From: a virus | IMG/VR virus record: IMGVR_UViG_3300025098_000151 | Location: 1-34,313 of that record | DNA length: 34,313 nucleotides | Strand: one strand, 5' to 3' | Part shown: positions 1,957-33,723 of the stretch, in pieces | How the letters are laid out: each line of letters opens with the position of its first letter | Position numbering within the stretch: the stretch's first letter is position 1 | Made by a program: the position numbers and the translations under genes | The notes under the pieces: generated by a model | Databases searched by the model: none | What the model saw: only the letters and a program-made list of their open reading frames with translations | What the model was told of the DNA's origin: nothing

Positions 1957-2591
1957 TAGTGAGCCTCCGACTTCTTGCGGATGGCCTCGAAGAACCACGC
2001 GATGTGGTGGGTGGCCATTTCCTCTATGCCCTCGGAGATTTCGTCTGGTGGGTCGCGGTGGTCGATGGGTGTGAGACAGCACACGGCAATCGTCCACATC
2101 GAGGCGATCTCTTGTGACCCGGTCGTGCGGCCAGTGTCTGCCAGTCGAGACAGAGCAGGGGTGACGTCGAAAGTATCGCTGCCTAGGAACGAACGGAACG
2201 GCTCGTACCAATCGTGCAGCTCTTTGCGGCATAGGTTGGCGTCAACGAAGGCGTCGCAAAGCTCGACGGCGTCCTCGTTGAAATCCCAGAGAGCTTGTTG
2301 GCGGTCGTTGAGGCCGTCAGCAAACCTGTCGCAAAGCGTGAGCGCCAACTTGTCGTCGAAGGCCAGCTCCTCTTCCGGCTCGCTGCGGGAGGCCACGACT
2401 TCGTCCATTGCCCCGTTGATGAGCTGCTGGACCTCAGCCGCTGCGCCCGTGGGAATGCTGGCGATGACCTTGACTTGGCTCTCTGTGTCGTCGTCCGTCT
2501 CACTGATGATGAAGGCGACGACGGCCAAAGGGTCGTCGATCTCCGTGAGCGTGGCACGTAACTCGGTGACGAGCTTGTCGTTAAGCTTCAT
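1956..2591 (-). CDS. Acidic protein of unknown function, 211 aa
   Basis: I do not recognise this protein. It is 211 aa, strongly acidic (SEPEEELAFDD, EISEGIEEMA), without signal peptide or membrane segments, and has several Trp and Cys residues in its second half. ATG 2591 lies inside the 3' end of the upstream nuclease gene (11-bp overlap), and its stop overlaps the Rap1a-like start, so it is embedded in a translationally coupled operon. The frame can be extended to 2795, but that extension is low-complexity Ser/Thr antisense to real coding and was rejected. Confidence 0.6.
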   Translation of the reverse strand: MKLNDKLVTELRATLTEIDDPLAVVAFIISETDDDTESQVKVIASIPTGAAAEVQQLINGAMDEVVASRSEPEEELAFDDKLALTLCDRFADGLNDRQQALWDFNEDAVELCDAFVDANLCRKELHDWYEPFRSFLGSDTFDVTPALSRLADTGRTTGSQEIASMWTIAVCCLTPIDHRDPPDEISEGIEEMATHHIAWFFEAIRKKSEAH

Positions 2592-2958
2592 CGGTGTCTC
2601 CCTTGACGTAACCCTTGTGGGCCAACCATCCCGAGTAGAGGTCGGCAAAGTCTTGCAGGTAGAGGACCACGTAGCTGTCGTGCGTGGGCTGGCGGCTTTT
2701 TCTATTGATGACGACTGGCCGGTCGAGGCCGCAGTTTTTCCGGGCTTGCTGCATCCAAGTGTCGACGGACAGGCGCTCGTGGCGCTTGGCCTCAATGGCT
2801 AGGCCGGGTGTGCCGGTGAGGTCGGGTAAGGCTTCGCCACGTCCGCCGCCTGATAGGGGCGTGCGGTGTGAGTTGAGGCCGCAGACCTCGTTGAAGAAGG
2901 CGGCGAGTTCGCGTTCGTAACCGTCGCCTTTGGCTTTCGCGCCTCTGCCCTTAACCAT
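2581..2958 (-). CDS. PD-(D/E)XK nuclease, Holliday-junction-resolvase-like
   Basis: The product is 125 aa, a normal length for Hjc-type resolvases. The catalytic pattern is visible: Glu15 in GYERELAAF, Asp46 in LPDLTG, and Glu56-x-Lys58 in LAIEAKRH, preceded by a PLSGGGR loop typical of Hjc-like enzymes. The family cuts four-way or branched DNA using Mg2+. In phages it resolves replication and recombination intermediates before packaging. The start ATG 2958 overlaps the upstream zinc-finger gene by 8 bp. Fit to the superfamily is strong; the exact substrate is inferred. Confidence 0.7.
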   Translation of the reverse strand: MVKGRGAKAKGDGYERELAAFFNEVCGLNSHRTPLSGGGRGEALPDLTGTPGLAIEAKRHERLSVDTWMQQARKNCGLDRPVVINRKSRQPTHDSYVVLYLQDFADLYSGWLAHKGYVKGDTDEA

Positions 2959-3223
2959 CTAAAGACTGCCTGCACTTGCTGCAGAAGTAGTGGTTGCGTG
3001 GACGGCGCTTGGTTGTGCCGCACCCCATGCATGGACGCTTCCAGTAGGCTGGCTTGCGGGGTTGGAATTTGGCGCCGGGATATTGACGGAGGCCAAGGGC
3101 AACGTGCAGGCGCTTGACCGTGTCAGTGCAGCAGCCCAGATAGGCAGCTTGGTCTGGTAGTGGGTCTGCAACATGGGCACGTAGCCATTCCTTTTCATCG
3201 TCAGAAAGTTCACGCTTTGCCAA
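2951..3223 (-). CDS. HTH plus zinc-ribbon DNA-binding protein
   Basis: The product is 90 aa. Residues 8-45 form a likely helix-turn-helix (DEKEWLRAHVAD, then a TDTVKRLHVALGL helix). The C-terminus carries two Cys pairs, CMGC and CSKC, a zinc-ribbon pattern. It starts at TTG 3223; no internal Met exists. AGGA lies 9 nt upstream, and the palindromic promoter element at 3241-3272 ends 19 nt before the start, which supports this start. It is the first gene of the leftward cluster and may be an early regulator. The target is unknown. Confidence 0.6.
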   Translation of the reverse strand: MAKRELSDDEKEWLRAHVADPLPDQAAYLGCCTDTVKRLHVALGLRQYPGAKFQPRKPAYWKRPCMGCGTTKRRPRNHYFCSKCRQSLDG

Positions 3224-3240: not shown

Positions 3241-3272
3241 TTGGTGTAAAGTTTATTTACACCTTTTTAACT
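3241..3272 (-). promoter_or_regulatory. Palindromic promoter/operator element, copy 1
   Basis: The core GGTGTAAA-N5-TTTACACC (3243-3263) is a perfect inverted repeat. Read leftward it is preceded by AGTTAAAAA and followed by CAA. It ends 19 nt before the TTG start at 3223. A sequence differing at only a few positions occurs at 30549-30579 in the same orientation. Leftward TTGCTA and TAAACT, 17 nt apart, can serve as a -35/-10 pair. Confidence 0.65.
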
Positions 3273-3341
3273 TAGCAAGCAAAAACTCTGTGGATCGCGT
3301 ACCGACCCCCAAAGGGAGGGGAGCGCGCACGCTAGAAGCTG

Positions 3342-3360
3342 GACGCTCCGGGGGAGCGTC
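3342..3360. repeat. GC-rich hairpin 1
   Basis: GACGCTCC (3342-3349) and GGAGCGTC (3353-3360) form an 8-bp stem with a 3-nt loop. It shares the 13-nt core GCTCCGGGGGAGC with the hairpin at 3381-3397. Confidence 0.6.
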
Positions 3361-3380
3361 TGGCGTGACAGTAGGAGCGG

Positions 3381-3397
3381 AGGCTCCGGGGGAGCCT
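3381..3397. repeat. GC-rich hairpin 2
   Basis: AGGCTCC (3381-3387) and GGAGCCT (3391-3397) form a 7-bp stem with loop GGG. It has the same core as the hairpin 39 bp to the left. Only TT follows on the right, so it is not a good intrinsic terminator. Confidence 0.6.
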
Positions 3398-3535
3398 TTG
3401 CGGGACAAACGGCTCGACAATCGTCGGGTTTATCTCCAGTGCTGTTTTGAGATATGCAGCACGCCAGTTGCGCAACCTGTGCCCCTTTTTTTCGTGGCTT
3501 GTCCAGCACACTGAACCTCATAACACGGGGGAAAC

Positions 3536-3560
3536 GGTGTAAACTATTGACACACTTTTT
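3536..3560 (-). promoter_or_regulatory. Palindromic promoter/operator element, copy 2
   Basis: Read leftward: an A-tract, then GTGTGTCAATAGTTTACACC. The GTGT and ACAC half-sites (3537-3540 and 3552-3555) have the same 19-nt outside spacing as copies 1, 3 and 4. It is not directly in front of a gene and lies about 310 bp upstream of the leftward cluster start at 3223. Confidence 0.45.
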
Positions 3561-3739: not shown

Positions 3740-3943
3740 ATGTACCAGAATTTCCGTAAACAATTTGAGACAATTTCCGACGTATCTGCGCGGGAGAGCA
3801 ACCGTGCGGCGGAGCCGCAGCTCGCCGCCTATGTTGATGACATCAGGAAGCTGTTTGGCGAGGCTAAGGTTGTGTACCTTGGCCCCCGCCGTTTAGACCC
3901 CACTCGACAAGCAGCGGCACAGGAACTCGAAGAGCCTTGCTGA
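3740..3943 (+). CDS. Possible small protein antisense to the primase-helicase 3' end
   Basis: A 67-aa frame whose translation looks protein-like: MYQNFRKQFETISDVSARES, then an amphipathic AAYVDDIRKLFGEAKVVYLG. Against it, TAA lies immediately upstream of the ATG, there is no Shine-Dalgarno sequence, and the last 80 bp are antisense to the leftward primase-helicase gene. No family is recognised. It could also be a chance frame. Confidence 0.35.
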   Translation: MYQNFRKQFETISDVSARESNRAAEPQLAAYVDDIRKLFGEAKVVYLGPRRLDPTRQAAAQELEEPC

Positions 3944-5861
3944 TTGCCGCTAACGGGTCGGGCAGGCCGGAGTACCTTGGGTTTGTGGCCATCGCCATAG
4001 CAGCCTGCTTGGCACTCATAGTGCTGTGCAAGGTTGGCCGCCAGTCACCAGCCTCAATCGTTTGGCCCAAGTAGTAGCTGCGCTCCGTGATGGGGTTGGC
4101 CTCACGCACCTTCCCGTAGGCAATCTGACTGACCCGGTCTAGCGGCTCCGCAATGTTGTGCGTCAAGCCAATCGCTTGATAGGGCGTACAGGCCACGCCC
4201 CGTACGTTCATCTGAAACTTTTCGTCGTGATCAAAGATGCCGTGCTTGCGCTGGGCCATCGCTTCGTCCTGATACACAGGCTTCACAAAGATCTGGGTGC
4301 TGATGTTGGTCAGCGCGTGGCTACTGCCAGCTTCCGTGCTGTGGCCATCTGCTCCGGGCTTGTTGCTGTGGTGCAGCCACACGACACACAGTCCCCGCCG
4401 TGTCAGCGCTTGGGTCAGCAGGTTGTAGGCTGTCCACTCGGATGCCTCGTTCTCTTTTAAACCGGGAAAGTGGGAGCGAACCGTATCAAAGACGACGATG
4501 TCTGGTTGGTGTAGCTTCAGCAGTCCAGTGAGCTGACCCGTGCCTGACTTCGACGCAAGGTCCAAGGCCGTGTCCATCATCCCGTCTGGCCCCGGCACGC
4601 TGCCCGGTACGACGCGCAAGTTGTCGCCGCTTTGGCCAATCAGTCCGAAGCGCTTGAGGCGGTCAGCGATCAGGTGTGGGTTGTTCTCCGGGTCGAGTAC
4701 CAAGGCGCGTGGCGTGCTCTGGATCTGCCATGGGCCAACAAAGCTCCCCAGCTTGGTCGGGTCACACGCTGCCTTGAGCAGCATCATCAGCAGCTCAGAC
4801 TTACCACTGCCTGAGTACCCGGCCACCATCGTCGCCTTGCCCGGTTCGAGGATCGTTTCCACAAAGGCTGGCTTGCGCGGGGGCAGGGCATCAATAAACT
4901 TCTGAGACGTCGCGTCGGACAAGTAGCCAATCAGTGGCGGCTTGGGCGGCTCCTCTTCCTGTTGGCCGCCGTGCAGGTCCGGGTGGTTCTGTAGGTCGGC
5001 TCGCCACAGGCTATCGACAATGATCTCAGTCTGCTTGCCTGCGTACTTCTCGTGGTCCCAGTAAATCGCACCCAGACGTTTTGCTTCGTCCAGAACCCAC
5101 GCTTTGTCCCGGCGCTCGTGGATCAGCTGCCCAACGACAAGCTTCATCGTCTCGTTGCGCTGGCCCTTCGTGATCTTTTTGCCTTGGCACACCTGCATCA
5201 GCCACTCTTCGGCTGTCTGGCCCTTAACCGCGTAGTCAGTCAGGTCGAGATCTTCGAGCTTTGGCCCATCGTCTTTTGGCTTTGGGGACGTGATGCCCGG
5301 AAAAGGGGGCAGATCGTCTATGTCGCATCGCGATAACCATTTTAGCCCCGAGCTGGGCGGTACGCGAGCGAGGCCGCCGTCCCCTCTGATGTCCAGCCCA
5401 GCGATGCCTTTGCTCGCTGAGTTGCGGACGTCCTCGCCTGTGTGGCGGAACCAGTAGTGCCAGCCTTTGGTGGTCTGGATTGCCATGGGGGTGTCGGTCA
5501 GGCCAATGCTTTGCGCGTACTCACGCGCCTCTGCCGTGTCACAGTCGACAACAATGATGCCCGACAGCGCACCAGTGACTACACCTATGTCCAGTGGCAC
5601 GGGCGTGGGCCAAGCTCGTCTGGCTTTTCCGTTGGCACGCAGCCACGGGCGGCCAGTGTGACGGTCGCCGTCTTCCCGTAGCCAATCAGGCGGCTCGGGG
5701 CTGCGAAAGTAGTCGTCCATGTCCAGAAGATCGTCTTCTGTCTGGCGTACCGTTTGTAAAAATTGCCACTGATGGGCTGGGATTTTCTCCCCTTGCTTCA
5801 GAGCTAGGACTTGAAGTCCCTCCTCGTGCAGCTCCAGCGCAAGGTCAATCCAACTCGCCAT
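3864..5861 (-). CDS. Bifunctional Prim-Pol / RecA-fold helicase
   Basis: The product is 665 aa. The N-terminal third matches the bifunctional primase-polymerase fold: Asp106-x-Asp108 in IIVVDCDT binds metal, GWHYWFRH (133-140) gives the S/W-H-x-x-x-x-H strand, and GLDIRGDGGL (155-164) is the third motif. The C-terminal part is a RecA/RepA-like ATPase: Walker A GYSGSGKS (348-355), LVLDPEN (387-393), IVVFDT (455-460), and a WLHHSNKPG sensor segment near 495-503. Such fusions prime and unwind DNA at the phage fork. ATG 5861 has GGAGGA 8 nt upstream and overlaps the regulator gene by 17 bp; the frame to 5909 lacks a good site. No DNA polymerase accompanies it here. Confidence 0.85.
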   Translation of the reverse strand: MASWIDLALELHEEGLQVLALKQGEKIPAHQWQFLQTVRQTEDDLLDMDDYFRSPEPPDWLREDGDRHTGRPWLRANGKARRAWPTPVPLDIGVVTGALSGIIVVDCDTAEAREYAQSIGLTDTPMAIQTTKGWHYWFRHTGEDVRNSASKGIAGLDIRGDGGLARVPPSSGLKWLSRCDIDDLPPFPGITSPKPKDDGPKLEDLDLTDYAVKGQTAEEWLMQVCQGKKITKGQRNETMKLVVGQLIHERRDKAWVLDEAKRLGAIYWDHEKYAGKQTEIIVDSLWRADLQNHPDLHGGQQEEEPPKPPLIGYLSDATSQKFIDALPPRKPAFVETILEPGKATMVAGYSGSGKSELLMMLLKAACDPTKLGSFVGPWQIQSTPRALVLDPENNPHLIADRLKRFGLIGQSGDNLRVVPGSVPGPDGMMDTALDLASKSGTGQLTGLLKLHQPDIVVFDTVRSHFPGLKENEASEWTAYNLLTQALTRRGLCVVWLHHSNKPGADGHSTEAGSSHALTNISTQIFVKPVYQDEAMAQRKHGIFDHDEKFQMNVRGVACTPYQAIGLTHNIAEPLDRVSQIAYGKVREANPITERSYYLGQTIEAGDWRPTLHSTMSAKQAAMAMATNPRYSGLPDPLAAISKALRVPVPLLVEWGLNGGGQGTQP

Positions 5862-6048
5862 TCGTGTCGTCCTCCATAATGTAATCCTTCGGGTCCAACC
5901 CCGCAGCACGGCAGATCCGGACTAAGTCTGCGATCCGCATGTCTCGTGACCTTCGCCAGTGGTAGGTCGCCGTCCTAGAGCGACCAGCCAAGGCTGCGAG
6001 CTGGGGCATTCCCCCGACTGCGGACACAAGCTTTTCGAAGTTGAGCAT
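5845..6048 (-). CDS. Cro-like helix-turn-helix regulator
   Basis: The product is 67 aa. Residues 4-55 have the layout of small Cro/YdaS-type repressors: FEKLVSAVGG, a first helix MPQLAALAG, a recognition helix SRTATYHWRRS, and a packing helix IADLVRICRAAGLDP. The tail is acidic. ATG 6048 follows a purine-rich leader (AAGAAGG, AAGAGA). The frame upstream to 6129 runs through the control region and is not needed. It stands between the leftward primase-helicase and the rightward recombination operon, next to a palindromic element at 6081-6105, the usual position of an autoregulating switch protein. That it binds this palindrome is inference. Confidence 0.7.
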   Translation of the reverse strand: MLNFEKLVSAVGGMPQLAALAGRSRTATYHWRRSRDMRIADLVRICRAAGLDPKDYIMEDDTNGELD

Positions 6049-6080: not shown

Positions 6081-6105
6081 AAAAAGTGTACTGTTTTTTG
6101 ACACC
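6081..6105 (+). promoter_or_regulatory. Palindromic promoter/operator element, copy 3
   Basis: AAAAA followed by GTGTACTGTTTTTTGACACC. The half-sites GTGT (6086-6089) and ACAC (6101-6104) keep the 19-nt spacing. Here the A-tract points rightward, toward the ATPase gene starting 24 nt further on. The element also lies 36 nt upstream of the divergent regulator, so it could control both directions. Confidence 0.55.
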
Positions 6106-6129: not shown

Positions 6130-6879
6130 ATGTCATTACCAATCAGATCAACCAGCAGCATCGCGCTCGATGAACCGAGCAAGTCACTCCTGTATTGCCA
6201 TATGGGCTGGGGCAAGACTTACACGGCACGTTACTTCGCCGAGGCCTATGGCAAGGGCGTGATCTTCTCAGGCGAGGCAGGGCTTAAAAGCCTGCAAGAC
6301 GTCGAGATTGACTACATCCCGTTTACTGGCTGGGAGCAGCCAGAAGGCGACGGGCTTGCCTTCAAGGATCTGCTGAAAATGATGCGCAGTCCTGATTTTA
6401 AAAAGGCAGGCTACAAGTGGATTATGGTGGATAGCCTGACTGAACTGTCCGACATTATTTTTCGGCACTACGACAAGCTTTACGGCGATGCCAACGGCTT
6501 CAAGGTGTGGGCCGATTACGGCAAGGCCGTCGAGGGCACACTGCGCATGATGCGCGACCAGAATGACTTCCATATCGTCTTTACCTGCCTCGCGGCTGAA
6601 GAAATTGATGCCAACGGCGTCACTCATTATTGGCCGCAAGTTCAAGGTAAAAAGCAGGGCAAGAAAATCCCGGCCCTGTTCGATAACGTCTTCGCCGGGG
6701 CCAAAGTCTCGAGCAAGACGAGCGACGGACCACCCGTCGTGCAGCGGGTTATCTACACCGACGAGATTAATGGCTGGCACGGTAAGGTCCGCGACCCATA
6801 CAACGCCAGCCGCCCAGTCGAAGAGACGGCAAACATCGTCGAAATTATCAAGCGTATTCAAACAGGAGAAACGAAGTGA
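6130..6879 (+). CDS. P-loop ATPase, AAA_24/Sak4-like recombination protein
   Basis: The product is 249 aa. The P-loop is CHMGWGKT (23-30), followed by the Walker B strand WIMVDSLTE (97-105). It then has a helix with YGKAVEGTLRMMRD and a strand HIVFTCLAAEE, as in phage RecA-fold ATPases of the AAA_24/Sak4 type that anneal or pair single strands. The first Gly of the classical Walker A is Cys23. ATG 6130 is preceded by GGGAGA and AAGAG. The gene opens a rightward operon with an SSB-like protein and a Cas4/RecB-like nuclease, the expected partners. Annealing activity is inferred from the family and context. Confidence 0.7.
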   Translation: MSLPIRSTSSIALDEPSKSLLYCHMGWGKTYTARYFAEAYGKGVIFSGEAGLKSLQDVEIDYIPFTGWEQPEGDGLAFKDLLKMMRSPDFKKAGYKWIMVDSLTELSDIIFRHYDKLYGDANGFKVWADYGKAVEGTLRMMRDQNDFHIVFTCLAAEEIDANGVTHYWPQVQGKKQGKKIPALFDNVFAGAKVSSKTSDGPPVVQRVIYTDEINGWHGKVRDPYNASRPVEETANIVEIIKRIQTGETK

Positions 6880-7381: not shown

Positions 7382-8191
7382 ATGTCAGAAATCGCCGAGA
7401 CCATACTCACCAAGATCGACGAGGGCTTTGTCGGACGTCGCAAGTCGAAGCCACGGGCCTACATTGGTGGGTCTAACATCGGCGGACCATGCGAAGCCGC
7501 GCTCTCATTCTCTCTCCGTGGCTTCCCAGACGATGAGCCTCCCCCTAAGACGCAGCGTATATTTGCGTTGGGCCATGCGCTCGAAGACCTCATCGTCGCT
7601 GATCTCAAGCACTCGGGGATCACCGTCATAGACCGTGACCCCGAAACCAACTGGCAGTTCGCTTACAAAAAATACGGCGGCCACATTCGTGGTAACGCCG
7701 ATGGCCAGATTGAGGTGGCCGATGGCGAGCTTGCTTTGCTTGAGATCAAAACCATGAACGCCGCTAAGTGGCGTGCGTTCGTGAAGAAGGGGGTGGCCGA
7801 AAGCCACCCCCAATATATTGCGCAGATGCAGACCTACATGGGGTTAGGCGGCTTCGAGAAAGCCGTCCTCCTTGGCTACAACAAGGACACGTCCGAGTAT
7901 CACTGCGAGGTCGTGGAGTTTGACCTGATCGAGTACCACGCGCTTTTGGCTCGTGCGGAACGGGTCATGGGTGGCCAAGCGCCAAGGGTTACAGACAACC
8001 CAGACGACTGGCGTTGTAGGTTCTGTTTTAAACGGGGTGCGTGCCGTGAAGGCAGGAAGCCAGAAAAAGACTGCGCGACCTGCCTTCACTCCGTCGCTCA
8101 AGACGACGGACGCTGGTACTGCAAGCTTAAATCTGAGACGGCGCAGGAGCTGTGTGATGACTATAGAATTTGGACGCCCACAGAAGAGTGA
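7382..8191 (+). CDS. Cas4/RecB-like PD-(D/E)XK exonuclease with iron-sulfur cysteines
   Basis: The product is 269 aa. Nuclease motifs are visible: His65 and Glu68 in GHALED, Asp107 in GNADG, Glu121-x-Lys123 in LLEIKTM, and the QxxxY helix Gln148-Tyr152. Cys37 near the N-terminus plus Cys212-x2-Cys215-x5-Cys221 match the four-cysteine 4Fe-4S staple of Cas4 and AddB. A second group, Cys231-x2-Cys234, Cys247 and Cys258, looks like an extra metal site at the C-terminus. It is likely a recombination or end-processing exonuclease acting with the ATPase and SSB-like protein just upstream. The gene starts 2 bp after the previous stop; the ribosome site is weak, suggesting coupling. Confidence 0.75.
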   Translation: MSEIAETILTKIDEGFVGRRKSKPRAYIGGSNIGGPCEAALSFSLRGFPDDEPPPKTQRIFALGHALEDLIVADLKHSGITVIDRDPETNWQFAYKKYGGHIRGNADGQIEVADGELALLEIKTMNAAKWRAFVKKGVAESHPQYIAQMQTYMGLGGFEKAVLLGYNKDTSEYHCEVVEFDLIEYHALLARAERVMGGQAPRVTDNPDDWRCRFCFKRGACREGRKPEKDCATCLHSVAQDDGRWYCKLKSETAQELCDDYRIWTPTEE

Positions 8192-8438
8192 CGACTTGAT
8201 CGATCACCCTGATCACTACGCCCACGGCGACAACGGCATTGAGCCAATCGAGTTCATCATGGCTAACGACCCAAAGGGTTATTACGTCCGTGGGGCCGTC
8301 ACAAAATACGCAAGCCGTGCAGGCTTCAAGCTGTATGCAAATATGGACGCCACGCAGTCAGAGATTACTGACTGGCGTAAAGCGATGCGGTATTGCGAGA
8401 TGCGCATCCGCCAGCTTGAAGGCGAAGCGGTCGTCTAA
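8157..8438 (+). CDS. DUF3310 family protein
   Basis: The product is 93 aa. It matches the DUF3310 pattern common in phages: DHPDHYAHG, IEPIEFIMA, GYYVRGAVTKYASRAG, then a Trp-Arg-Lys-Ala helix (DWRKAMRYCEMRI). The biochemical role is unsettled; members lie among nucleotide-metabolism and replication genes. ATG 8157 has AGGAG 7 nt upstream and overlaps the nuclease gene by 35 bp. A longer frame to 7953 is only a shadow of that gene. Its stop shares CTAA with the convergent spanin-like gene, so the rightward operon has no room for a terminator here. Confidence 0.75.
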   Translation: MTIEFGRPQKSDDLIDHPDHYAHGDNGIEPIEFIMANDPKGYYVRGAVTKYASRAGFKLYANMDATQSEITDWRKAMRYCEMRIRQLEGEAVV

Positions 8439-8632
8439 TAGTCGCACAGCTGCTGGTGCAGGAGATTGTGCTCCAGCACCTGCCGCTTGGTCTCCATGGT
8501 GTCGCCCATGGCTGGGTAGATGTAGTCGTAGATCTCGCAAGCGCTACTGACGGAACCACCCACCTTCGCGCAGCCGCTTGTCAATGTCAGCGTCAGAAGC
8601 AGTGCGAACGCTGCGCTCAATGTCTTTGGCAT
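8435..8632 (-). CDS. Rz1-like outer-membrane lipoprotein (o-spanin candidate)
   Basis: The product is 65 aa. A lipoprotein signal, ending TSGCAK, gives a mature N-terminal Cys21; the mature part is only 45 residues. It contains a phage lysis-region motif: CEIYDYIYP, ETKRQVLEHN, and a terminal QLCDY. Similar tiny proteins accompany Rz-type genes. GAGGAG lies 10 nt before ATG 8632. The gene overlaps the Rz-like gene out of frame by 89 bp, the arrangement typical of overlapped Rz/Rz1 pairs. It probably bridges to the inner-membrane partner to disrupt the outer membrane at lysis. Confidence 0.6.
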   Translation of the reverse strand: MPKTLSAAFALLLTLTLTSGCAKVGGSVSSACEIYDYIYPAMGDTMETKRQVLEHNLLHQQLCDY

Positions 8633-8780
8633 GACGTTTGATCTCCTCTAGCCGCTCTTGGTCGCGGCGTGCTTGATCCCGTTTGTTGTCACGACGGCCA
8701 GCAATGTAAATGAAGAGGCCGAAGGCCGCCGCTGCTGCGGCTGCGCCCCCGGCAATGATCTGTTGAACCAGCATCTCCAT
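8544..8780 (-). CDS. Rz-like inner-membrane coiled-coil protein (i-spanin candidate)
   Basis: The product is 78 aa. An N-terminal membrane segment (IIAGGAAAAAAAFGLFIYIA, about residues 8-27) is followed by a charged coiled coil (RDQARRDQERLEEIKRHAKD) and a short tail ending GGWFRQ. This is the topology of an i-spanin. ATG 8780 begins one base after the stop of the giant virion-protein gene, so it is probably translated by coupling. The next gene, a lipoprotein, overlaps it out of frame. It could alternatively be another single-pass lysis accessory protein. Confidence 0.6.
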   Translation of the reverse strand: MEMLVQQIIAGGAAAAAAAFGLFIYIAGRRDNKRDQARRDQERLEEIKRHAKDIERSVRTASDADIDKRLREGGWFRQ

Positions 8781-8781
8781 C

Positions 8782-11700
8782 TTAGAAGTCCGTCGTACCG
8801 TAAGTGGTTCGCTTGTAGGTGCTGCCACCGATGCCGCTGGACTTGCCCTCGACTGGCTTGAGATCGGTCAACGCCTCCTTCAGTGCCCGGTTGCCACCGA
8901 CCAGTGGGGCACGGCCTACCACGGAGCGGATTGCCTGACGTTGCTTGCCGGGGCTGCCTTCGCCGCCCATGGCCTCACCGACAGCGTCACCCACACCCTC
9001 TGAGATCTTCAGTGCGTCGTTGAACAGGCCGAACGTCGGGCCAAGGATCGTGGATGCGATGCGCTCACGTCCGTAAGCCCCGTTGTCCTGCTGCTCTGCT
9101 GTGGTGCGGAAGATGTCGCCAAGCAAACCAAGGCCACCCGCCTGCATGAACGACTGGAAGTACCAGCCTGACATGGCGTCCAGCTGCTCGTTGGACCACT
9201 CGGGGCCAAACGTGTTGCTGAGCTTGGTAGTCTGGTTGATGCCGACGCTCTGGCCTTCTTCGCCGCCACGAGCCATGACCAAGTCCTTGCCAGCAATCGA
9301 GCCTGCGGCAACCGCTGGCCCCAGTGTCATCAGCAGGGCTGGCTTTTTCATGTACTGAGCCGCCGTGCCGTAGTCGCCTTTGGAGAGGGCTTGCCAAGCC
9401 ATGCCTGCTTCGTCGACTGTCATCTCCTTGGCAAAGCGCCCGTACATGATGGCAAACGATTTGAGCTGGTAGACCATCGCACCCCATGGGCTGTTGGCAA
9501 ATAGCGGCATGTCGTGTGGCTTTGGGGAGAAGATCGTTGCATCGGTAAAACGGATCACCGCACGCTCGAACATCTCATCGGCAGGCGTGCCGCCACCCAG
9601 CTTTGGTATGGGCTGAGATGGGTCGTAGCTCATGCCGAACTTTATCAGCTCACGGGCGTGACGGTTGTAAGCCGGGGAGCTTTGAGCCGCTGGCCCCATT
9701 TTCTTGAGGGCTTCCATATGGTGACGGAGGCCATGCTCGCCGATGGCCGCTGCGCCAGCACGTTGCATGTTGGTCCATGGCGTGAGGCCAGTCATCTTGA
9801 AGAAGGTGGACTGAACAATGTTGCTGCCGTCGCCAACGAGTTGGGCCATCCGCTCGTGCGTGATGCCGTCCATCGCAATGCCGATGCGGCGGATTGTGTC
9901 CCGGTAATCCTTGTCGCCGATGTACTTGGACCAGCCCTGCCACGCTGCCTTGAAGTCACCGCTGCGGATGATTGGCATGGCAAGGTCAGAGAAGGATGAG
10001 ATGGTCGCGTAGGACAGCAGCGTCACGTTTTGGAAGGCACGCAGCGAACGCGACACGTTACGCATCGATTGGCTGGCGTCCTTGCTCGCCGACTTGCGCA
10101 TGATCAATCGGCTGTAGCCGTTGACTGCGATCAGGTCGTCCTGTGTGATCTGAGCTTCCTTGCCCTTGAAGTCCTTGAGGGCGTCGATGATCGCATCCAC
10201 ACGGCGCGTGTAAGTGATAGGCCGCGAGTTGGCTGCGTAGGCGTCGTACATGACTTTACGTGCGCCTTCGAAGTTCCCGAGTTGAGCTTCTGCAAATGCC
10301 TTCTCGCCCGTTTTTTTGGCGAGTGCTGGGGGCAGCATGCTGATGCCGATTGTCTCGGTCTTCTGTTCAAGACCATCGGGGCCAACAGTGCGCCGGTTGG
10401 TCGTGAACCGCTTCTCGCTTTGCAGCAGCTCAATGATGCCGCTCTTACCTTCTTGTGCGGCCTTGGCGTAGTCCATGATCCCGTGGCCATTGACGCCAAA
10501 GTAGTCGGCCTGCTGGATCACGCGCTCGGTCTCATCGAAGTACCGAACGACCGTGGCCATCAGGGACTGCTCCTGATACTTCTGTGCGCTTTCCAGCAGC
10601 TCGGGGGCCACTTGGTGGAACTTCAACAGCCGGGTGAAGTCTGCACTGTCGATCAAGGCCTTTGGGCTGTCAGGGTCGAAGTCGACTACGCCCGTGTCGT
10701 TGTTTGTGATGTTGGAGTAGACCTTGTCAGCGAAGGCCTTCGCCTCGTCGTTGGAGGCTGTGCGCTGCTCCTCCTTAAAGTAGCTGAACATCAACCCTTT
10801 GAACCCTTCTTCATCACGGCGGATGTACTCGGGGTTCCAGACTTGTGGGAAGTAATCAGGGCCAAGATCGCCCACTAGGATGCCTGCTGTTTGCATGCGT
10901 TCCAGTTGTTTTTGGAAGGCGCCGCGCAGGTGCTTATACATCTGGCGCTCGCTGTCGTTGGCCAAAGACCCTACCTTCTTTGGGTCGATCATTGCTGCTC
11001 GGATCCGGCCCAACGGAGCTGGTTCGTCGAAGTTCTTGAACAGCACCTTGTTGCCCTGCCACGACGTGGTCATGTAGTTGCTGACCTTGGAGAGCAGGTT
11101 CGCTGGCATGCCCGGAAGATTGTTAAGGCCGACGAGCTTCTTGTTCTTGTCGCCTTCGAGCATCGGCATAATGATCTGGCCGGTCTTGCGAGTGTGCTCA
11201 GCGGTGAAGTCGTTGAACTTAGCCGACAGCGTACCCATCCCGGCTTTCTGGAGCCGTTGCTCTGCGCCGTCAATGAGGGCACGTAGCGCTTGTTGCACGC
11301 CGACTGTAGCCCGTGATCCTGTGATCATCTCCGAAATGGCCTTGGCCACCTCTCCCGGCACTTTCTTGGTCAGGCCAAGGTGATCCTCAACAGCACCAGC
11401 TGCTGATGGTGGCAGCTTAGTCTCGGAAGCGACCAGCTCCCAGAACGATGCGCCGACGCCTGACTGAAGTACGGCGTCTTCATCTGGCTCAATCGGAAGA
11501 TCCGGCGCCCGAAGACTGCGGATGTCGTCACCGTTGAAGATGGCATAGACGGGGCGAGCTGCGCCCTCATCGTTAATGGTGCCTGCGATGCCGTCATAGC
11601 CAGCCGCCCGGAGACGCTGGATGATGACGTTGCGCGCTTGACCAGAACCAAGACCAGCTCGCTCAAGCACGTCGACAGCGTGCATGAACAAGTCATCACC

Positions 11701-14700
11701 GTCCGTCACGTCATCGAGCGTCTGGCCGAAGAGCAGCCCAGCGCGCTGATCTGCGTCAGTAATGGCGCTGGCAAGCAGCTTGGTCATCTCACTGTTAGGG
11801 CCGTACTGCGCAGTCTCTTGGAAGTTGGCAATGGACTGAGCGCGGGTCACAACGGGGGCCACATCATCGAAGCTGCGCCCTGTGTCGTCCAGTTTCTCCA
11901 GTAAGCCTTCACGCTGATCGAGCAGGGTGGATACGCGGTCTCGTGCCGCCAGTGCTTCGGCGCTGGTCTCTGCCATGGCTTGCTGGCCACGCAACCGTAA
12001 GAGATCCTCGTCGATGCTGGCCACACGCTCGACCAGATCTTGAGCTTGTGCCTCCATACCGGTGCGAGCCGGGATGTCGCCGTTTTTGGTGCGCAGTGCG
12101 CCAACGGGGTCTGAGGAAATGTAGGTCGCCATGCCAAACATGCCGTTGGTTTGAGCGCGTCCTTGGTTGTCGACCTGAGATCCTCTACGCACTGGAATGT
12201 ACATTGCAGTAGGCATTCCGTTCGGCAGCACGTTGAACGCGCCCTTGGTGAAGCGCTGGATGCCAGCACGAAGTTGGGCTGTACCGTGCTTCAACACTTC
12301 GGAGAAAGCATCTGCCGCCACTTCTGGGGCTACGGCATTGCCCACGCCATGCATTGCAGTGATTGGGCGCTTGTTGGTTGCGAACATGTCCCCATAAACG
12401 GTCAGGCCGGGGTACTTCTTCCGCAGGGATTTGCTGGCCACAAGTCCGTTGGCGAGGTAGCCGGTGCGGTCCATGTAGTTTCGAGCGCGCTGCAGGAATA
12501 CGGAGCGGTCTGGGCTGTTTGGGAACACGCGGTCAAAGGTGGTCTTGCCTGAGAGAAGCTGGACTACGGCGTCAGCCATGAACTCGTCCGCTGGGCGGCC
12601 ATTGATTGAGTTAAGGTCGAGGTCGTTGCTGCCACGGATGGCCAACAAGGCAAGGTCACGGACGGTGTCTTCCCCGTTCTTGAGGCCCAACGCAATCTGG
12701 CGCAGCTGGGTGCGCAGGTTACGGTACAGTTGGCTGTCTTCAGTTAGGGCAGGGCCACTGGGATCAGGCTGTAAACCGAACAGTGGGGCAAGCACGCTTT
12801 CACGCGCTGGACCGTCACCAGCCTTTGTGCCGCCGACCAAGTTCATTGTGCGGAAGAACAGCTGACGCATCGTGGACGCTGTCTCGTCGTCCCGGCGGAC
12901 GTTCATCTTTTCTTGCAGGCGCTGGATCTGAGGCCGTGCGTTGAGCGACACGCCGTCTTGGTTCAGACCGTTCTCGGAAATCTCAGTCAAGCGCAGGGCG
13001 TCGACCATGCCATCTTGTGGAGGCATGTTCTCCTTGCCGCCCACGCTGCGGTAGGCAGCACGGTACTTGGCGAAGTCGTCCATGTCGTTCGCGTGAAAGC
13101 TGGCCAACATCATGGAGTACAGCTTCGCAGGATCACTAAGGGACGTGTCGAGCGCGGGGCCATCATAGACTGGCTCGGCATCGAGCTTGCGCTTGATGAG
13201 TTGCGCGATGGCACGCTCCTGTCCGCCCAGTGGGCCTGTGCGTGGCGTGAAGTCCAACAGGCCTGCCAATTCCTCGACAGACGCATCGACTGGCACGGAC
13301 ACCTTGGCCGCATTCTTGGCTAAGGTTTCGTCCGTTTTGTTTACATTGTCTGGGCTGAATGCGCTGTTGGCGAACACCTTCCAACGGCCCTTCTTGAGAG
13401 CCGTCTTCTCAGCTTTGGATGGGCCGATACTGGCTTTTTCTTTCTGAGCCTTGATGCCTTTATCGAGCTTCATCTGGTACTGGCCAGCGGCGAAAGCCTC
13501 AAATCGATCCCGCAACTGGTCATCGACTTTCTGCAAGGCTTCAGCGATCACGCCCTGTGTGTCAGCAACACCAGTCCACCCTTGCGCGATGCGCTCATAC
13601 TTCACAGGGTCAAATTCTGTCGTGAGGAAAGGCAGGGTTTCTGCTTCGGGGTTATAACCGTACTGGTTCGTGCTCTTCGACGTATCAATGACCTCGACCA
13701 GTTCATTAATATCGGCGATAGCCTTGCGTATTGGGAAGGCAATGAACGCGACCGGCTCGAAAGTCCCCGTGTTGTTGCCTCGCGTTGATCCACCGGACTT
13801 GCGCGCGATGTAAGCGTTCTGGTTCTTTGTGTTTGTTAGGCTGTGCAGGAAGCCAACAGTCTTGATGGCAAGCCCTTCCAGCGCGCCGCCTTGCTCGACA
13901 GCCGCAGTCCAATCCCCTTTGAGTTCTTGTAAGAAGTCGTAGCGCGACTGGATCGCGCGTGCCGTCTTGTCTTTTGGTGGGTTGGCCAAGTCGTCAATGC
14001 GGTAAATCAACCGCTCCGTGTCGCCAAGGATATTGGAGAAGATCGGGTCGAAGTTCTCGGGCACGCCGCCTGACATGAAGAAATCAAACAGTTGGTTGAA
14101 GATCTTGCCGAGCTTCTCAAAGAACGTCATGCCTTTGGCCTGCAGGCTCTTGCGGAATACTTTGTCGCTGCCCCATTTGGTGAACAGGTTAGCGAACACC
14201 TCTTGGAAGTTGGAGCCAACGTCTAGCGCCTCTGGTGCGTCGCCTAAGCCCAGCTTGTCCAAGCGCAAGTTGCCGCTGTCGTCGATGTAGGTGGCCAGCT
14301 CTTTGAACCAGTCAGCCTTGATGCGCGGTGTCAGAACGTAGTCCGTGGACCAGTGGCCAAGCTCATGCAGCATGGCGTGCATCGGGTGGAAATAGAGGCT
14401 TTGAGGGTTAAGCGCAATCGTCCCAGAGGACTTGAAAGCGAACTGTTGCACGCCCACTTCGTCGACCTGCACAGCCGCAGGGCGGTACGTGCCAGCTTGG
14501 TCAAACGGCATCGCCTCGCCAACGATGTTGGGGGCACCATCGGATTTAACGCCAGCCATCAGACGCTTCAGCATCTCTAAGGTCTCGGTGTCAGCATCGC
14601 GGTAGATGCCCTCCAGCGCCCTGTAGGCCGCAGCTCGAGTGGCCTGCGGGTAGGTGATACCCTGCGGCAGGACACGGGACATGTAGCCGTAAAACAGCGA

Positions 14701-17655
14701 TGCCTTGCTAATCAGAGCGGCTGCGTTTCCGTCTTTTAAACCCACACGCCACATCTCGGCCTCACGGGTCAGCAAGTCTTTGAATGTGCGAAGTGGCTGA
14801 TTGCCATCGATAAACATCTTGAAGAGCGTCTGCTCTTCGTCAGTCTCGGGCACAGGCAGATCTAGCTCTGCCAGCTCGCTGAACAGTGGAGCGCCTGCTA
14901 CCTTGTCGTCGTAGCTCTTGCGCTGCAGCGGAATGTCGTCTTTGCCCGTGCGGAATGGGGTCTGCCCTTTGATAGCCTCTTCAAGCACGGCTTGTTTGTT
15001 GCTGGTCGGCGGGGCCAATGGGGCGAAGTACAGCTCCCAGTGATCGGGGTTCCAGTTGTCGGCCATCGGCTGCCCTCGACGAGGTAGGCCAATCAAGTCT
15101 CGAAATGTTCCGCCCTTGGCGGCCTGCTTGGCCGTTGCTTGCCGAATTGGAACAGACGGGCCTGTTGCTTTCGGGCCAGTGTAGACTGCGACGAGGTACT
15201 GGTCGGCTTTAGCCATTGGTGTGGCCAGCATCTTGTCGTCGGCAGCGCTGCTGGTGGCTCCGTAGTCGAAGCGTGTCGCGCCGTTCTTGTCTAAGAAAGT
15301 GGCAACCGCACGGTCGTCTGCCTCCTTGGCCATGCGCTTGGCTGCTGGGGCCATCTCTTGGTTCTGCAGCACCCGGTCGAGAGCCTCGCGTGCTTCTTCC
15401 AAAGTCTCGCCAGCGAAGGACTTGTTCATATCAGCGCTGTAGATGACGATGCTGCCCCTCGGAGCCATCTCATCGAAGCTTTCAGTGGTCGCTGCCTTCA
15501 CGCTGCCACTGGACTTGTAGACCACGTAGCCACCTTGAGCGCTCAGCGTTTCGGTCATGCCGTCTTGAGCCGCGTTCAACTCGCTCGTGCTGTCCATCCC
15601 CTTGCGGAACTCACGGTTGATCTGAGCCAGTGCTTTCTTGCGAGGTTCGGGCTTGCCTGCTGCCTTCAGCTCTTCAGTAAGCGTCTTCAACCGTTCCTTC
15701 TCGACGTCGGTCAGGTCAGCAACCTTGCGCTTGCTGGCCTCCATCTTCTTGCCGAGGATGTCGCGACCGAACACGGGGCCATCTTTGGTCAGGCTTTCTC
15801 GTGCCAACATCTCTGCGTAGTTGCGCTCGACGGAGTTGAACGTCGGAAGGTTGAACGACTTGCGCAGGATCTTCTGCAGGCCGCCAGCGATACGAGTGGT
15901 CCGCTTGGTGGCAGGGTCGACGTTCTCGACCAGACTGCGGCCAGCCAGCTCGTCGCCAGTGGCCAGTTCTTCCATGGACTTGGCTGTGCGGTCGGCCATT
16001 CGGGCGGGGGTAGGCCCGTCGCCTGCTATGGCGGCACGGTCAACTTCGCCAAATGCCTTCTCGACGGCCTTGGTCAGGTCCATCGAGGTCTTGAGTTCTT
16101 GAACCCGGTTGTGGACCTGCTGCTGGCTTGCTGCGTCCAGCGCGGTAAAGCGGCCAAGGAACTCAGCAGGGAAGGGGTTGTTCGCAATGGCTTCGGCTAT
16201 TGCTGCTGCTTCAGCTGGATCAACGCCAGCTTCTTCGGCGGCGCGCTCAGCGTTGGCTGCCGTGTCCTCCGGTGTCCCTTTCTGTCCCGTTCTGGTCTCT
16301 GCTGCCTGCTTCTCCGCGACAACCTTGGCGGCCACAGATGTCGGGGTTTCTGCTGTTGCTTCAGCAACCGGCTCTGCGCCGCGTGACGTGATGAAGTCGC
16401 GGATTTCATCAAGGCGCAGACTGTTGGTTACTTTGCCGGGGGCGTCGCCGTTCATGGCACGCGAGATGACAAACTGTTCTAGTTCTGGGTCGTTGAACGA
16501 TCCAGTTTTGGGGTCTGTCGTCACGTCGATGTTATTCTCGGCGGCGGCCTTCTGTGCCTTCACAGAAACTTTTCCGTTAGTCCGCTTACTCATGTCGGGG
16601 CCAGCAACGGGGGCAGCTTCAGGCACGGCTTCAGGCGCGGCCTCGCCAGCAACGGCTTCGGTTGTCTCAGTGGCCGCCTCCGTAGGGGCGCCAGCTAGTG
16701 AGACGGGGCTTTCGCCGTCTGCCGCAAATGTTACGGCGCTGGTGTCGTAAGACATTGCCTCAATGTACTCGCCGACAAGGTCGTCTTCGAGGTCGAGCTT
16801 GCCTTGGCCACTGGCCGCTGCGGCGTCTTGCAGGAGAGCCATCTGGTGCTGATCGGGCGTGGGTGTTGCCGGAAACGCTGGGGGTGTGGGCACTGCGGCT
16901 GCCGAGGTGGTCTCTTCGGCTGGGACATCTGGGTCTAACCGTGCTGCACCGCCACGGAAGATCGCGCCACCTGCGCCACCCAATGCGCCACCGATACCTG
17001 CACTGAATGCGGCCTCGCCAGCGACGTCAGCTGCCAACCGGCCAAGGGAGAACTGGTCTTGCAAGCCAAGCTTGATGTCGACGTTCTGGTTGCCAACGGA
17101 GTAAACGGCACCGAAACCTGCGCCGAGTGCGCCTTCGTAGGCTGCACCACGGAGAGCGCCAGCTTTGGCTGCTGCAATGGTTGGGCTTTTGCCTGCCATC
17201 GTGGCGATTTGGGCGGCCTTAGCGACACCCTTACCGCCTGCGCCGATGAAGCCACCGACAAGGTTGATGGGGTCAAGGACAAGCGCCTTGGCGTAAGAAG
17301 GAAGTGCTGTTCCGGCACCAACGCCGCCCTTCTGGAAGAAGGCTGGCAGCTTGTTGTGCGCATCGCGGAGACGCGCCTGTCGAGCGCGGCTTTCTGGCGT
17401 AGCTGCCTCGGCGCGCTGGTAGGCGTTGAATGGGCCAATGGTGGCATTCAGCTTGCTGAAGGTCTGGTCGTCGTAGAACTTCCGCATCAGCTCATCGTCG
17501 TCGGCGATGTAGATGCCTCGGTCTTCAAATTCCTTACGGACGTCCGCCACGACACGCGGGTCGGACATGATGTCCTCGCCTCGAACGTCGGAGTAGGTGG
17601 TCTGTGGGGCGGAAGAAAGGGTCGACGAACCCAGCAGTGAGGACTTGCGGAACAT
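8782..17655 (-). CDS. Giant (2957 aa) polyvalent virion/ejection protein with a metallopeptidase motif
   Basis: This is by far the largest gene. The first 250 residues include a Gly/Ala-rich membrane-active stretch. An Ala/Glu/Pro-rich linker follows (around 330-450). A zincin site HELGH at 1097-1101 has a likely third ligand Glu1152 in QEVFANLF. Segments resembling ADP-ribosyltransferase-type polyvalent domains lie at His1769, Tyr1845 (ATYISSDP) and 2017-2050 (AAGYDGI then VYAIFNGDDIRSL). The C-terminal ~900 residues are helical and resemble large ejection proteins. Position after the internal virion proteins fits a packaged protein injected with DNA. ATG 17655 is preceded by GGAGAA. Metallopeptidase is the firmest domain call; the ART-like call is tentative. 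Confidence 0.75.
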   Translation of the reverse strand: MFRKSSLLGSSTLSSAPQTTYSDVRGEDIMSDPRVVADVRKEFEDRGIYIADDDELMRKFYDDQTFSKLNATIGPFNAYQRAEAATPESRARQARLRDAHNKLPAFFQKGGVGAGTALPSYAKALVLDPINLVGGFIGAGGKGVAKAAQIATMAGKSPTIAAAKAGALRGAAYEGALGAGFGAVYSVGNQNVDIKLGLQDQFSLGRLAADVAGEAAFSAGIGGALGGAGGAIFRGGAARLDPDVPAEETTSAAAVPTPPAFPATPTPDQHQMALLQDAAAASGQGKLDLEDDLVGEYIEAMSYDTSAVTFAADGESPVSLAGAPTEAATETTEAVAGEAAPEAVPEAAPVAGPDMSKRTNGKVSVKAQKAAAENNIDVTTDPKTGSFNDPELEQFVISRAMNGDAPGKVTNSLRLDEIRDFITSRGAEPVAEATAETPTSVAAKVVAEKQAAETRTGQKGTPEDTAANAERAAEEAGVDPAEAAAIAEAIANNPFPAEFLGRFTALDAASQQQVHNRVQELKTSMDLTKAVEKAFGEVDRAAIAGDGPTPARMADRTAKSMEELATGDELAGRSLVENVDPATKRTTRIAGGLQKILRKSFNLPTFNSVERNYAEMLARESLTKDGPVFGRDILGKKMEASKRKVADLTDVEKERLKTLTEELKAAGKPEPRKKALAQINREFRKGMDSTSELNAAQDGMTETLSAQGGYVVYKSSGSVKAATTESFDEMAPRGSIVIYSADMNKSFAGETLEEAREALDRVLQNQEMAPAAKRMAKEADDRAVATFLDKNGATRFDYGATSSAADDKMLATPMAKADQYLVAVYTGPKATGPSVPIRQATAKQAAKGGTFRDLIGLPRRGQPMADNWNPDHWELYFAPLAPPTSNKQAVLEEAIKGQTPFRTGKDDIPLQRKSYDDKVAGAPLFSELAELDLPVPETDEEQTLFKMFIDGNQPLRTFKDLLTREAEMWRVGLKDGNAAALISKASLFYGYMSRVLPQGITYPQATRAAAYRALEGIYRDADTETLEMLKRLMAGVKSDGAPNIVGEAMPFDQAGTYRPAAVQVDEVGVQQFAFKSSGTIALNPQSLYFHPMHAMLHELGHWSTDYVLTPRIKADWFKELATYIDDSGNLRLDKLGLGDAPEALDVGSNFQEVFANLFTKWGSDKVFRKSLQAKGMTFFEKLGKIFNQLFDFFMSGGVPENFDPIFSNILGDTERLIYRIDDLANPPKDKTARAIQSRYDFLQELKGDWTAAVEQGGALEGLAIKTVGFLHSLTNTKNQNAYIARKSGGSTRGNNTGTFEPVAFIAFPIRKAIADINELVEVIDTSKSTNQYGYNPEAETLPFLTTEFDPVKYERIAQGWTGVADTQGVIAEALQKVDDQLRDRFEAFAAGQYQMKLDKGIKAQKEKASIGPSKAEKTALKKGRWKVFANSAFSPDNVNKTDETLAKNAAKVSVPVDASVEELAGLLDFTPRTGPLGGQERAIAQLIKRKLDAEPVYDGPALDTSLSDPAKLYSMMLASFHANDMDDFAKYRAAYRSVGGKENMPPQDGMVDALRLTEISENGLNQDGVSLNARPQIQRLQEKMNVRRDDETASTMRQLFFRTMNLVGGTKAGDGPARESVLAPLFGLQPDPSGPALTEDSQLYRNLRTQLRQIALGLKNGEDTVRDLALLAIRGSNDLDLNSINGRPADEFMADAVVQLLSGKTTFDRVFPNSPDRSVFLQRARNYMDRTGYLANGLVASKSLRKKYPGLTVYGDMFATNKRPITAMHGVGNAVAPEVAADAFSEVLKHGTAQLRAGIQRFTKGAFNVLPNGMPTAMYIPVRRGSQVDNQGRAQTNGMFGMATYISSDPVGALRTKNGDIPARTGMEAQAQDLVERVASIDEDLLRLRGQQAMAETSAEALAARDRVSTLLDQREGLLEKLDDTGRSFDDVAPVVTRAQSIANFQETAQYGPNSEMTKLLASAITDADQRAGLLFGQTLDDVTDGDDLFMHAVDVLERAGLGSGQARNVIIQRLRAAGYDGIAGTINDEGAARPVYAIFNGDDIRSLRAPDLPIEPDEDAVLQSGVGASFWELVASETKLPPSAAGAVEDHLGLTKKVPGEVAKAISEMITGSRATVGVQQALRALIDGAEQRLQKAGMGTLSAKFNDFTAEHTRKTGQIIMPMLEGDKNKKLVGLNNLPGMPANLLSKVSNYMTTSWQGNKVLFKNFDEPAPLGRIRAAMIDPKKVGSLANDSERQMYKHLRGAFQKQLERMQTAGILVGDLGPDYFPQVWNPEYIRRDEEGFKGLMFSYFKEEQRTASNDEAKAFADKVYSNITNNDTGVVDFDPDSPKALIDSADFTRLLKFHQVAPELLESAQKYQEQSLMATVVRYFDETERVIQQADYFGVNGHGIMDYAKAAQEGKSGIIELLQSEKRFTTNRRTVGPDGLEQKTETIGISMLPPALAKKTGEKAFAEAQLGNFEGARKVMYDAYAANSRPITYTRRVDAIIDALKDFKGKEAQITQDDLIAVNGYSRLIMRKSASKDASQSMRNVSRSLRAFQNVTLLSYATISSFSDLAMPIIRSGDFKAAWQGWSKYIGDKDYRDTIRRIGIAMDGITHERMAQLVGDGSNIVQSTFFKMTGLTPWTNMQRAGAAAIGEHGLRHHMEALKKMGPAAQSSPAYNRHARELIKFGMSYDPSQPIPKLGGGTPADEMFERAVIRFTDATIFSPKPHDMPLFANSPWGAMVYQLKSFAIMYGRFAKEMTVDEAGMAWQALSKGDYGTAAQYMKKPALLMTLGPAVAAGSIAGKDLVMARGGEEGQSVGINQTTKLSNTFGPEWSNEQLDAMSGWYFQSFMQAGGLGLLGDIFRTTAEQQDNGAYGRERIASTILGPTFGLFNDALKISEGVGDAVGEAMGGEGSPGKQRQAIRSVVGRAPLVGGNRALKEALTDLKPVEGKSSGIGGSTYKRTTYGTTDF

Positions 17656-28608: not shown

Positions 28609-28640
28609 TAATAGCGCATGTGGGGCCGAAGCGCCGCGCT

Positions 28641-29707: not shown

Positions 29708-29990
29708 GGTTTTTATCTCCAGCCTTGGCGGGGTTCGCGTGCGCAGCCATTGGAAGTTCGTTGGTCAGTTGCGCGATGCGACGTTGGGGGAGGTCGATGA
29801 CCATCGCGGCGGCGTCAACGCGGCCACGTCTCCAATGGAGTTCTTCGTTTGTGATGTCGGGCGTTTGGCCAAGGTTCACGACAGCGCCGTACATCTCGCG
29901 TTTCATCACCGAGACGAGGTCGTGCCAGCCGGGGTGCTTGGCTAAATCTTCGAGGGCTTTGAGCTTGGCTTGGATTTCTCGTTCAGTCAT
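29700..29990 (-). CDS. Small conserved-looking phage protein, about 96 aa
   Basis: Function unknown. The sequence is helical (EREIQAKLKALEDLAKHPGWH, then MVIDLPQRRIAQLTNEL), without membrane segments. It lies between the amidase and scaffold genes and overlaps both. ATG 29990 sits over the amidase stop (ATGACTGA); a TTG two codons earlier is the alternative. Confidence 0.55.
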   Translation of the reverse strand: MTEREIQAKLKALEDLAKHPGWHDLVSVMKREMYGAVVNLGQTPDITNEELHWRRGRVDAAAMVIDLPQRRIAQLTNELPMAAHANPAKAGDKNHG

Positions 29991-30534
29991 CGACAAGCCA
30001 CGCCTTCATTTTTGAAAGCCACCTGCGCTTAGGCTTCTGGACCTCAGACTTGGGCTGTTCGGGAGCTTCTTTGATGGGCTGCTTCTTCGACCGGAGTGGA
30101 GGCATACGGCCAGTGCTGTCGAGCTTGAGGTAGGACTTGTAGTCGTAGATCGGGCAGTCGCGGATTACGACCTCGCCGTGGCCATGGAATGTGACAGCGC
30201 CGCCATAGGCGTAGCGGATGTCTTCGCAGAATTCGCGCAGCGTGACGATCTGCTTGGTGCTGAAGTCGTCCCGTGCGTCTTGGCCGCCGTGCATCGCGAT
30301 GGCGATGGTGCCTTTGTTGTGGCCTTTCTGAGCGGCGGGGGTCTTCTCAAGATCGCGACCGGCGCTGATGCTGCCGTCCTTGTGGATCATGTAGTGGTAG
30401 CCTACGTCAGACCAGCCACGGCCAAGGTGCCAAGCGCGGACGACCTCGATGTCGTCGTGATGGTCGTAGCTGCTGGCTGTGCAGTGCAGGAAGACGCGGT
30501 CAACGTGTCTGTTTGGGCGGGTAAAGGATGTCAT
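29983..30534 (-). CDS. N-acetylmuramoyl-L-alanine amidase endolysin (T7 lysozyme-like)
   Basis: The product is 183 aa. Zinc ligands of the Amidase_2 fold are visible: His17 in FLHCTAS, His119 in GHGEV, and Cys127 in IRDCP. Tyr46 (VGYHYMIHKDG) and the KGTIAIAMHGG strand also fit. The usual Lys two residues before the Cys ligand is Arg125. After about residue 140 there is a basic, Pro/Lys-rich tail (LRSKKQPIKE). It cleaves the amide bond between muramic acid and the peptide at lysis. A promoter-like palindrome lies 16 nt upstream of ATG 30534 and the XhlA-like gene precedes it. Confidence 0.8.
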   Translation of the reverse strand: MTSFTRPNRHVDRVFLHCTASSYDHHDDIEVVRAWHLGRGWSDVGYHYMIHKDGSISAGRDLEKTPAAQKGHNKGTIAIAMHGGQDARDDFSTKQIVTLREFCEDIRYAYGGAVTFHGHGEVVIRDCPIYDYKSYLKLDSTGRMPPLRSKKQPIKEAPEQPKSEVQKPKRRWLSKMKAWLVDD

Positions 30535-30548: not shown

Positions 30549-30579
30549 TTGGTGTACAATTTATTTACACCTTTTAACT
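30549..30579 (-). promoter_or_regulatory. Palindromic promoter/operator element, copy 4
   Basis: GGTGTACA-N5-TTTACACC (30551-30571), read leftward with a preceding AGTTAAAA and following CAA. It matches copy 1 at 3241-3272 over nearly 30 bp with a few differences and one indel in the A-tract. It sits between the XhlA-like gene and the amidase. Confidence 0.65.
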
Positions 30580-33658: not shown

Positions 33659-33723
33659 GGATTTCTTCCTTGGTTGTCAGGAATGTTGACACTAGGTGGG
33701 CGAGGGTCGGGTGTCGTCCGCCT

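Follow-up and report, generated by a model that had tools for sequence, protein, structure and literature searches.

Dispersed operators are a known means by which one phage protein can act at many places in its genome. The phiC31 repressor binds dispersed intergenic conserved inverted repeats (CIRs), and belongs to a family different from that of the small helix-turn-helix (HTH) protein considered here. In the temperate phage SPbeta a short operator repeated between genes, SPBRE, was found in silico, and ChAP-seq then showed that the master repressor MrpR binds it (PMC10516654). Cluster A mycobacteriophages such as L5 carry many dispersed sites (stoperators) for their repressor Rep, which diverge together with the repressor lineage, and autoregulation has been proposed to act through a site that precedes the gene for Rep (PMC6550527). 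In a further report, stoperators are described as 13-bp asymmetric sequences, mainly in one orientation, that are bound by a monomer and terminate elongation (PMC9283540). Closer in protein type is YdaS of CP-933P, a small HTH protein which, via palindromes at the divergent junction, represses both the promoter of its own gene and the one facing away from it; in lambdoid systems of this kind, as in PaaR2/YdaS, operators are common to CI-like and Cro-like proteins (PMC8630535).

The DNA analysed here (the window, 34,313 nt in full) is a 34-kb viral fragment whose major capsid protein (MCP) shares 70% identity with its counterpart in Roseobacter phage CRP-810, and by its sequence the window phage is a relative of this temperate roseophage. 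Both have the gene order RusA, zinc-ribbon protein, primase-polymerase, and then a divergent block of Sak4, SSB and a Cas4-type exonuclease. CRP-810 integrates into its host and is the type of a marine, diverse and globally distributed family, most members of which have an integrase, and the paper that introduced the family suggests a LuxR gene as a possible lysis-lysogeny switch (PMC11288001). We found no integrase in the window fragment; integrases are present in its lineage relatives G001 and G007. Relatives were gathered from IMG/VR and GTDB genomes, where an MCP alignment search found a Poseidonocella prophage and a contig scan that used just the MCP of the window gave no match. The window had no hits in Rfam and tRNA searches. 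Past the exonuclease block lies a 2957-aa ORF that probably encodes a giant protein of the virion or one that is ejected; its CRP-810 counterpart in the same block is 2016 aa long and unnamed.

Repeated palindromes in the window

The first-pass annotation had described two near-identical palindromes 27 kb apart, and both are indeed found on the minus strand, as AGTTAAAAAGGTGTAAATAAACTTTACACCAA at 3241-3272 and AGTTAAAAGGTGTAAATAAATTGTACACCAA at 30549-30579. Their 21-bp cores, GGTGTAAATAAACTTTACACC and GGTGTAAATAAATTGTACACC, end 19 nt before the zinc-ribbon TTG (3223) and 16 nt before the amidase ATG (30534), respectively, and the outer half-sites of the dyad, in minus-strand reading, are GGTGTA and TACACC or equivalents. 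The one-sided A-tract that had also been described is present at O1 and O2 but is not a general feature, as the relatives do not all have it. In a motif search of the window this pair proved to be the strongest members of a larger set, with further copies of the same geometry that had previously been missed (Table 1). All five window sites are intergenic, and where the downstream gene is clear they lie 14-36 nt upstream of its start codon.

Table 1. Operator-like sites and associated genes of the window.
Feature	Positions	Strand	Remarks
O1	3243..3263	-	GGTGTAAATAAACTTTACACC; operator-like palindrome upstream of zinc-ribbon/RusA genes; best copy
O2	30551..30571	-	GGTGTAAATAAATTGTACACC; between holin-like (XhlA/hemolysin family) gene and amidase
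O3	6085..6105	-	GGTGTCAAAAAACAGTACACT; between divergent HTH-primase and Sak4 operons
O4	3536..3556	-	AGTGTGTCAATAGTTTACACC; weaker copy, primase/zinc-ribbon intergenic region
Fifth copy, weaker	33673..33693	-	AGTGTCAACATTCCTGACAAC; 14 nt upstream of ATG at 33658
RusA gene	2581-2958		after zinc-ribbon gene
Zinc-ribbon protein gene	2951..3223	-	under O1; HTH-like N-terminus by eye
Primase-polymerase/AAA gene	3864..5909	-	PF09250, PF13481; proposed operon partner of HTH gene
HTH gene, unannotated	5845..6048	-	67 aa, Cro/YdaS-like; overlaps primase start; O3 directly upstream
Sak4-like annealing/recombinase gene	6130..6879	+	phrog_124; divergent operon under O3; start set from where relatives' matches begin
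2957-aa ORF	8782-17655		no Pfam match; C-terminal match only, to phrog_16310
Amidase (endolysin) gene	29983..30534	-	under O2; phrog_822, E=1.7e-35

The enrichment of the motif is specific to one spacing. The window has four copies of RGTGT-N11-ACACY (at 3243, 3536, 6085 and 30551), whereas each of the other spacings between 0 and 59 bp gives 0 or 1, and in 1000 dinucleotide shuffles of the window the mean was 0.095, with at least two copies in 8 shuffles and four in none. For the relaxed 21-bp core, with at most two mismatches allowed, 0.08 copies were expected (100 dinucleotide shuffles) and no shuffle contained two. Moreover, when a weight matrix trained only on the sites of relatives was used to scan the window, the top five positions were 3243 (31.1 bits), 30551 (29.2), 6085 (22.1), 33673 (19.7) and 3536 (16.4), and the sixth-best position scored 7.1 bits. 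Repetition of one motif at several intergenic places of a single phage genome, above chance, is thus seen in the window, and it is seen in CRP-810 as well.

Several other structures were noted in the same fragment. In the primase/zinc-ribbon intergenic region two GC-rich hairpins follow one another at 3335-3405 (GGACGCTCCGGGGGAGCGTC and GGAGGCTCCGGGGGAGCC), which are perhaps terminators or structured RNA, and a 23-nt perfect hairpin, GGGGGTGGCCGAAAGCCACCCCC, lies at 7789-7811 inside the Cas4-type exonuclease gene. A palindrome at 28646-28665 was considered as a further operator and rejected: it is a 20-bp look-alike within a long hairpin (28640-28672, -17.9 kcal/mol) between the scaffold-like and MCP genes, with perfect 11-bp arms, TGTAGGGGTGT-N10-ACACCCCTACA, and because compensatory changes preserve this hairpin in relatives (TATGGGGGTGT/ACACCCCCATA in L011) it is more likely an RNA structure, probably one of processing or attenuation.

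A small HTH protein as the candidate binder

The position of O3, between Sak4 and the unannotated 67-aa HTH ORF, points to a probable binder, and O3 itself is a probable autoregulatory operator. Almost all of the genomes examined have a site immediately above the HTH gene, whose product is 61-99% identical within the lineage and 37% identical to gp24 of CRP-810; a tblastn search with it against the phages collection gave no match. AF2 predicts five helices (pLDDT 88), and the closest PDB folds to this model by Foldseek are Xfaso1 Cro (3bd1), C.BclI (2b5a), P22 c2 and N15 Cro, the first three with TM about 0.6, probability about 1 and E of 0.01-0.1, values that stay below formal significance even at the best E of 0.01. 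Most of the top folds are of the same fold class, and the Pfam matches point to HTH families while remaining under their cut-offs (HTH_31 17.0 against 27 bits, HTH_26 16.1 against 22, YdaS 15.3 against 30). The model predicts a Cro/CI-type helical HTH fold, and the protein is probably the binder of the dispersed sites.

Taken together, we consider it likely that the palindromes, of which four to five copies lie in the fragment, form the dispersed operator set of this phage-encoded and presumably dimeric Cro/YdaS-like protein, which would regulate its own gene and most likely repress genes of replication, recombination and lysis. The HTH protein would bind dyads of the type TGTMAA-N5-TTNACA just upstream of several operons. 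From O3 it would control its own HTH-primase operon together with the divergent Sak4 recombination operon, from O1 the zinc-ribbon/RusA operon, and from O2 the amidase independently of the holin-like gene, and in relatives the integrase-region and packaging genes would be controlled as well. Because promoters are not recognisable at O1-O4, the mode of repression is one that we infer: it would most likely act by covering the promoter or start region, and at O1 and O2, which are near the start codon, the bound protein could block just downstream of the transcription start. These units would then stay silent in the lysogen, or be switched off together in the course of infection, and at some sites activation is an alternative.

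Sites in relatives and the spacing of the dyad

Within the lineage of the window, O1 recurs at the orthologous position in those contigs whose region upstream of the zinc-ribbon gene is readable, with some copies shifted by a few bases or weaker (e.g. in contig L026). O2 is kept in L005, L006, L007 and L012 and is missing from L010 and L011 because the intergenic gap is gone there, the stop codon of the holin-like gene abutting the amidase start. Relatives that keep the genes and lack the element had been named as evidence against the initial proposal, and only O2 provides such a case, since L010 and L011 retain the holin-like and amidase genes. The copy at 33673 is kept in L005 and L006 and not in L010-L012, and O4 was seen elsewhere only in the near-identical L020; both are weak, with conservation limited to near-identical contigs. 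In general, conservation of the sites at orthologous positions persists while their flanks diverge. The 41-kb G001 has more copies than the window, around its integrase region and just before the packaging genes, and G007 has additional copies near its integrases. In these two genomes (L081, G001 21500-41160; L082, G007 8000-21712) we also observed two tyrosine integrases placed face to face with small genes between them, and operator-like copies at the starts of these small genes.

The more distant genomes carry a related dyad. CRP-810 has seven copies of TGTA-N10-TACA, against 0-2 at neighbouring spacings, and by its deposited annotation 7/7 are intergenic in a genome with a non-coding share of 7.9%. 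They are found at the HTH/Sak4 junction, twice upstream of the zinc-ribbon homologue, twice between the integrase and its neighbouring gene, before luxR and before cobS. The zinc-ribbon homologue itself is present in the CRP-810 record (L003 14038-14313) and is not annotated there. The peak at this spacing is clear in CRP-810 and several relatives and not in every distant genome, with no TGTA-N10-TACA in G029, and with copies in the AT-rich G026 and G028 that form no peak. In 12/12 contigs of the window lineage TGT-N11-ACA precedes the HTH orthologue, 49-58 nt before its start, and in 12 of the 14 other genomes of CRP-810 type, the Poseidonocella prophage among them, TGT-N12-ACA occurs at most 110 nt upstream of the HTH gene; the background is about 0.046 per 110 nt, and as the genomes are related these counts are not independent trials. 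The two distant genomes with no TGT-N12-ACA at the junction are G021 and G025.

Combined, the seven CRP-810 sites and the N11/N12 junction counts point to an operator set with a 1-bp longer dyad in the lineage with the diverged HTH protein. This 1-bp difference in spacing follows the split between the two HTH lineages, in which the recognition segments read SRTATYHWRR and VRTAPYGWVRR. We would only tentatively extend this to the suggestion that a stand-alone Cro-like protein of 67-75 aa is the master regulator of the CRP-810-type family and acts genome-wide, its dispersed dyads extending to genes of lysis, integration and packaging, and that the 1-bp change (TGT-N11-ACA against TGT-N12-ACA) makes two operator dialects whose lineages may be mutually heteroimmune. 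With these sites the family gains a candidate regulator not annotated as such and probable binding sites in many genomes, and the spacing difference makes switch and immunity groups directly testable. What had been proposed from the first pair was a phage-specific promoter or operator that coordinates an early and a lysis unit. Its operator half is well supported, as a phage-specific family that spans unrelated gene blocks, is intergenic, has orthologous sites in relatives and varies by phage lineage, whereas the coordination of early and lysis genes was too narrow, with copies also before the HTH regulator/Sak4 operon and, in relatives, at integrase-region and packaging genes.

Other readings and comparison with known systems

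The sites could instead be operators of another DNA-binding protein, namely the zinc-ribbon/HTH protein encoded at 2951-3223, a repressor outside the window, or a host regulator, which we regard as unlikely. The HTH protein is a mere 67 aa, and its role as repressor is one that we infer; the zinc-ribbon gene is found family-wide, lies under O1 and has an HTH-like segment; and as the window is a fragment, a separate CI-like repressor could be encoded outside it, the lambdoid sharing of operators by CI-like and Cro-like proteins (PaaR2/YdaS, PMC8630535) also counting for another binder. However, in most of the distant subgroups the site is kept at the HTH junction and is absent upstream of the zinc-ribbon gene, a host factor would not readily account for a split of N11 and N12 by phage lineage, and the distribution of the sites is not matched by that of the LuxR or XRE candidates. 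LuxR (gp13) has no tblastn match in G018, G020 and G026-G029, all six of which have a junction site, and the XRE proteins of G001 and G007 were not detected in any other genome searched. Two known boxes were likewise rejected as the identity of the sites on account of their spacing: the host TyrR box is TGTAAA-N6-TTTACA, where the window sites have N5, and the Lux box is TGT-N8-ACA.

That the copies are phage-specific promoters, recognised by an RNA polymerase of the phage or by that of the host after modification by the phage, seems to us improbable. The near-identity of O1 and O2, their distance of 16-19 nt to start codons and the one-sided A-tract suggested it, and at O1 several relatives have TTGCTT-N17-TAAATA or similar, a weak resemblance seen by eye. 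Yet the copies are dyads, O3 is placed between divergent genes, and relatives keep the half-sites and not always the A-tract. None of the scanned ORFs was recognised as encoding an RNA polymerase, and a scan confined to sigma-70 -35/-10 hexamers 16-18 nt apart gave 0 at O1-O4, which leaves the promoter half of the first-pass annotation unsupported. More improbable again are intrinsic terminators for antisense (+ strand) transcripts: although on the + strand O1 forms a hairpin of 8 bp with TTTTT after it (-9.6 kcal/mol), the folding of O3 (z 0.55) and O4 (z 0.08) does not exceed that of shuffled sequence, O2 was not called by the terminator scan, the TGT/ACA half-sites persist where stem pairing is lost, and the strand of the T-tract differs among copies. 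A chance or mobile repeat is scarcely credible, for although near-perfect copies are just two and the pattern also matches in the unrelated phages L031 and L037, it is contradicted by the shuffle controls and by conservation at orthologous positions despite diverging flanks. The matches in L031 and L037 were rejected, as they lie within coding sequence and look like chance; other matches to the pattern are in the AT-rich contigs L030, L032, L034 and L035.

Read as the dispersed operators of the HTH protein, the palindrome set is of a known type of system, in which site and putative binder differ from the known examples. Similar to SPBRE and MrpR, a short operator is repeated across the intergenic regions of a phage genome; there, however, it is a 15-bp motif with a recombinase-related repressor, and here a 21/22-bp dyad with a small, by prediction Cro-like, HTH protein. 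With the Cluster A stoperators the set has in common that sites are dispersed, that one lies above the candidate regulator gene, and that they diverge with the lineage of this candidate. Unlike those asymmetric 13-bp sites in one orientation, the window sites are 21-bp symmetric dyads near start codons, with O3 between divergent genes. The likeness to lambdoid Cro/YdaS systems is in the palindrome at a divergent junction and in an HTH protein with a weak YdaS match and a Cro-like predicted fold, but whereas the operators characterised there sit together in a single immunity region, the window has its copies one by one across about 27-30 kb, with a lysis gene among those they precede.
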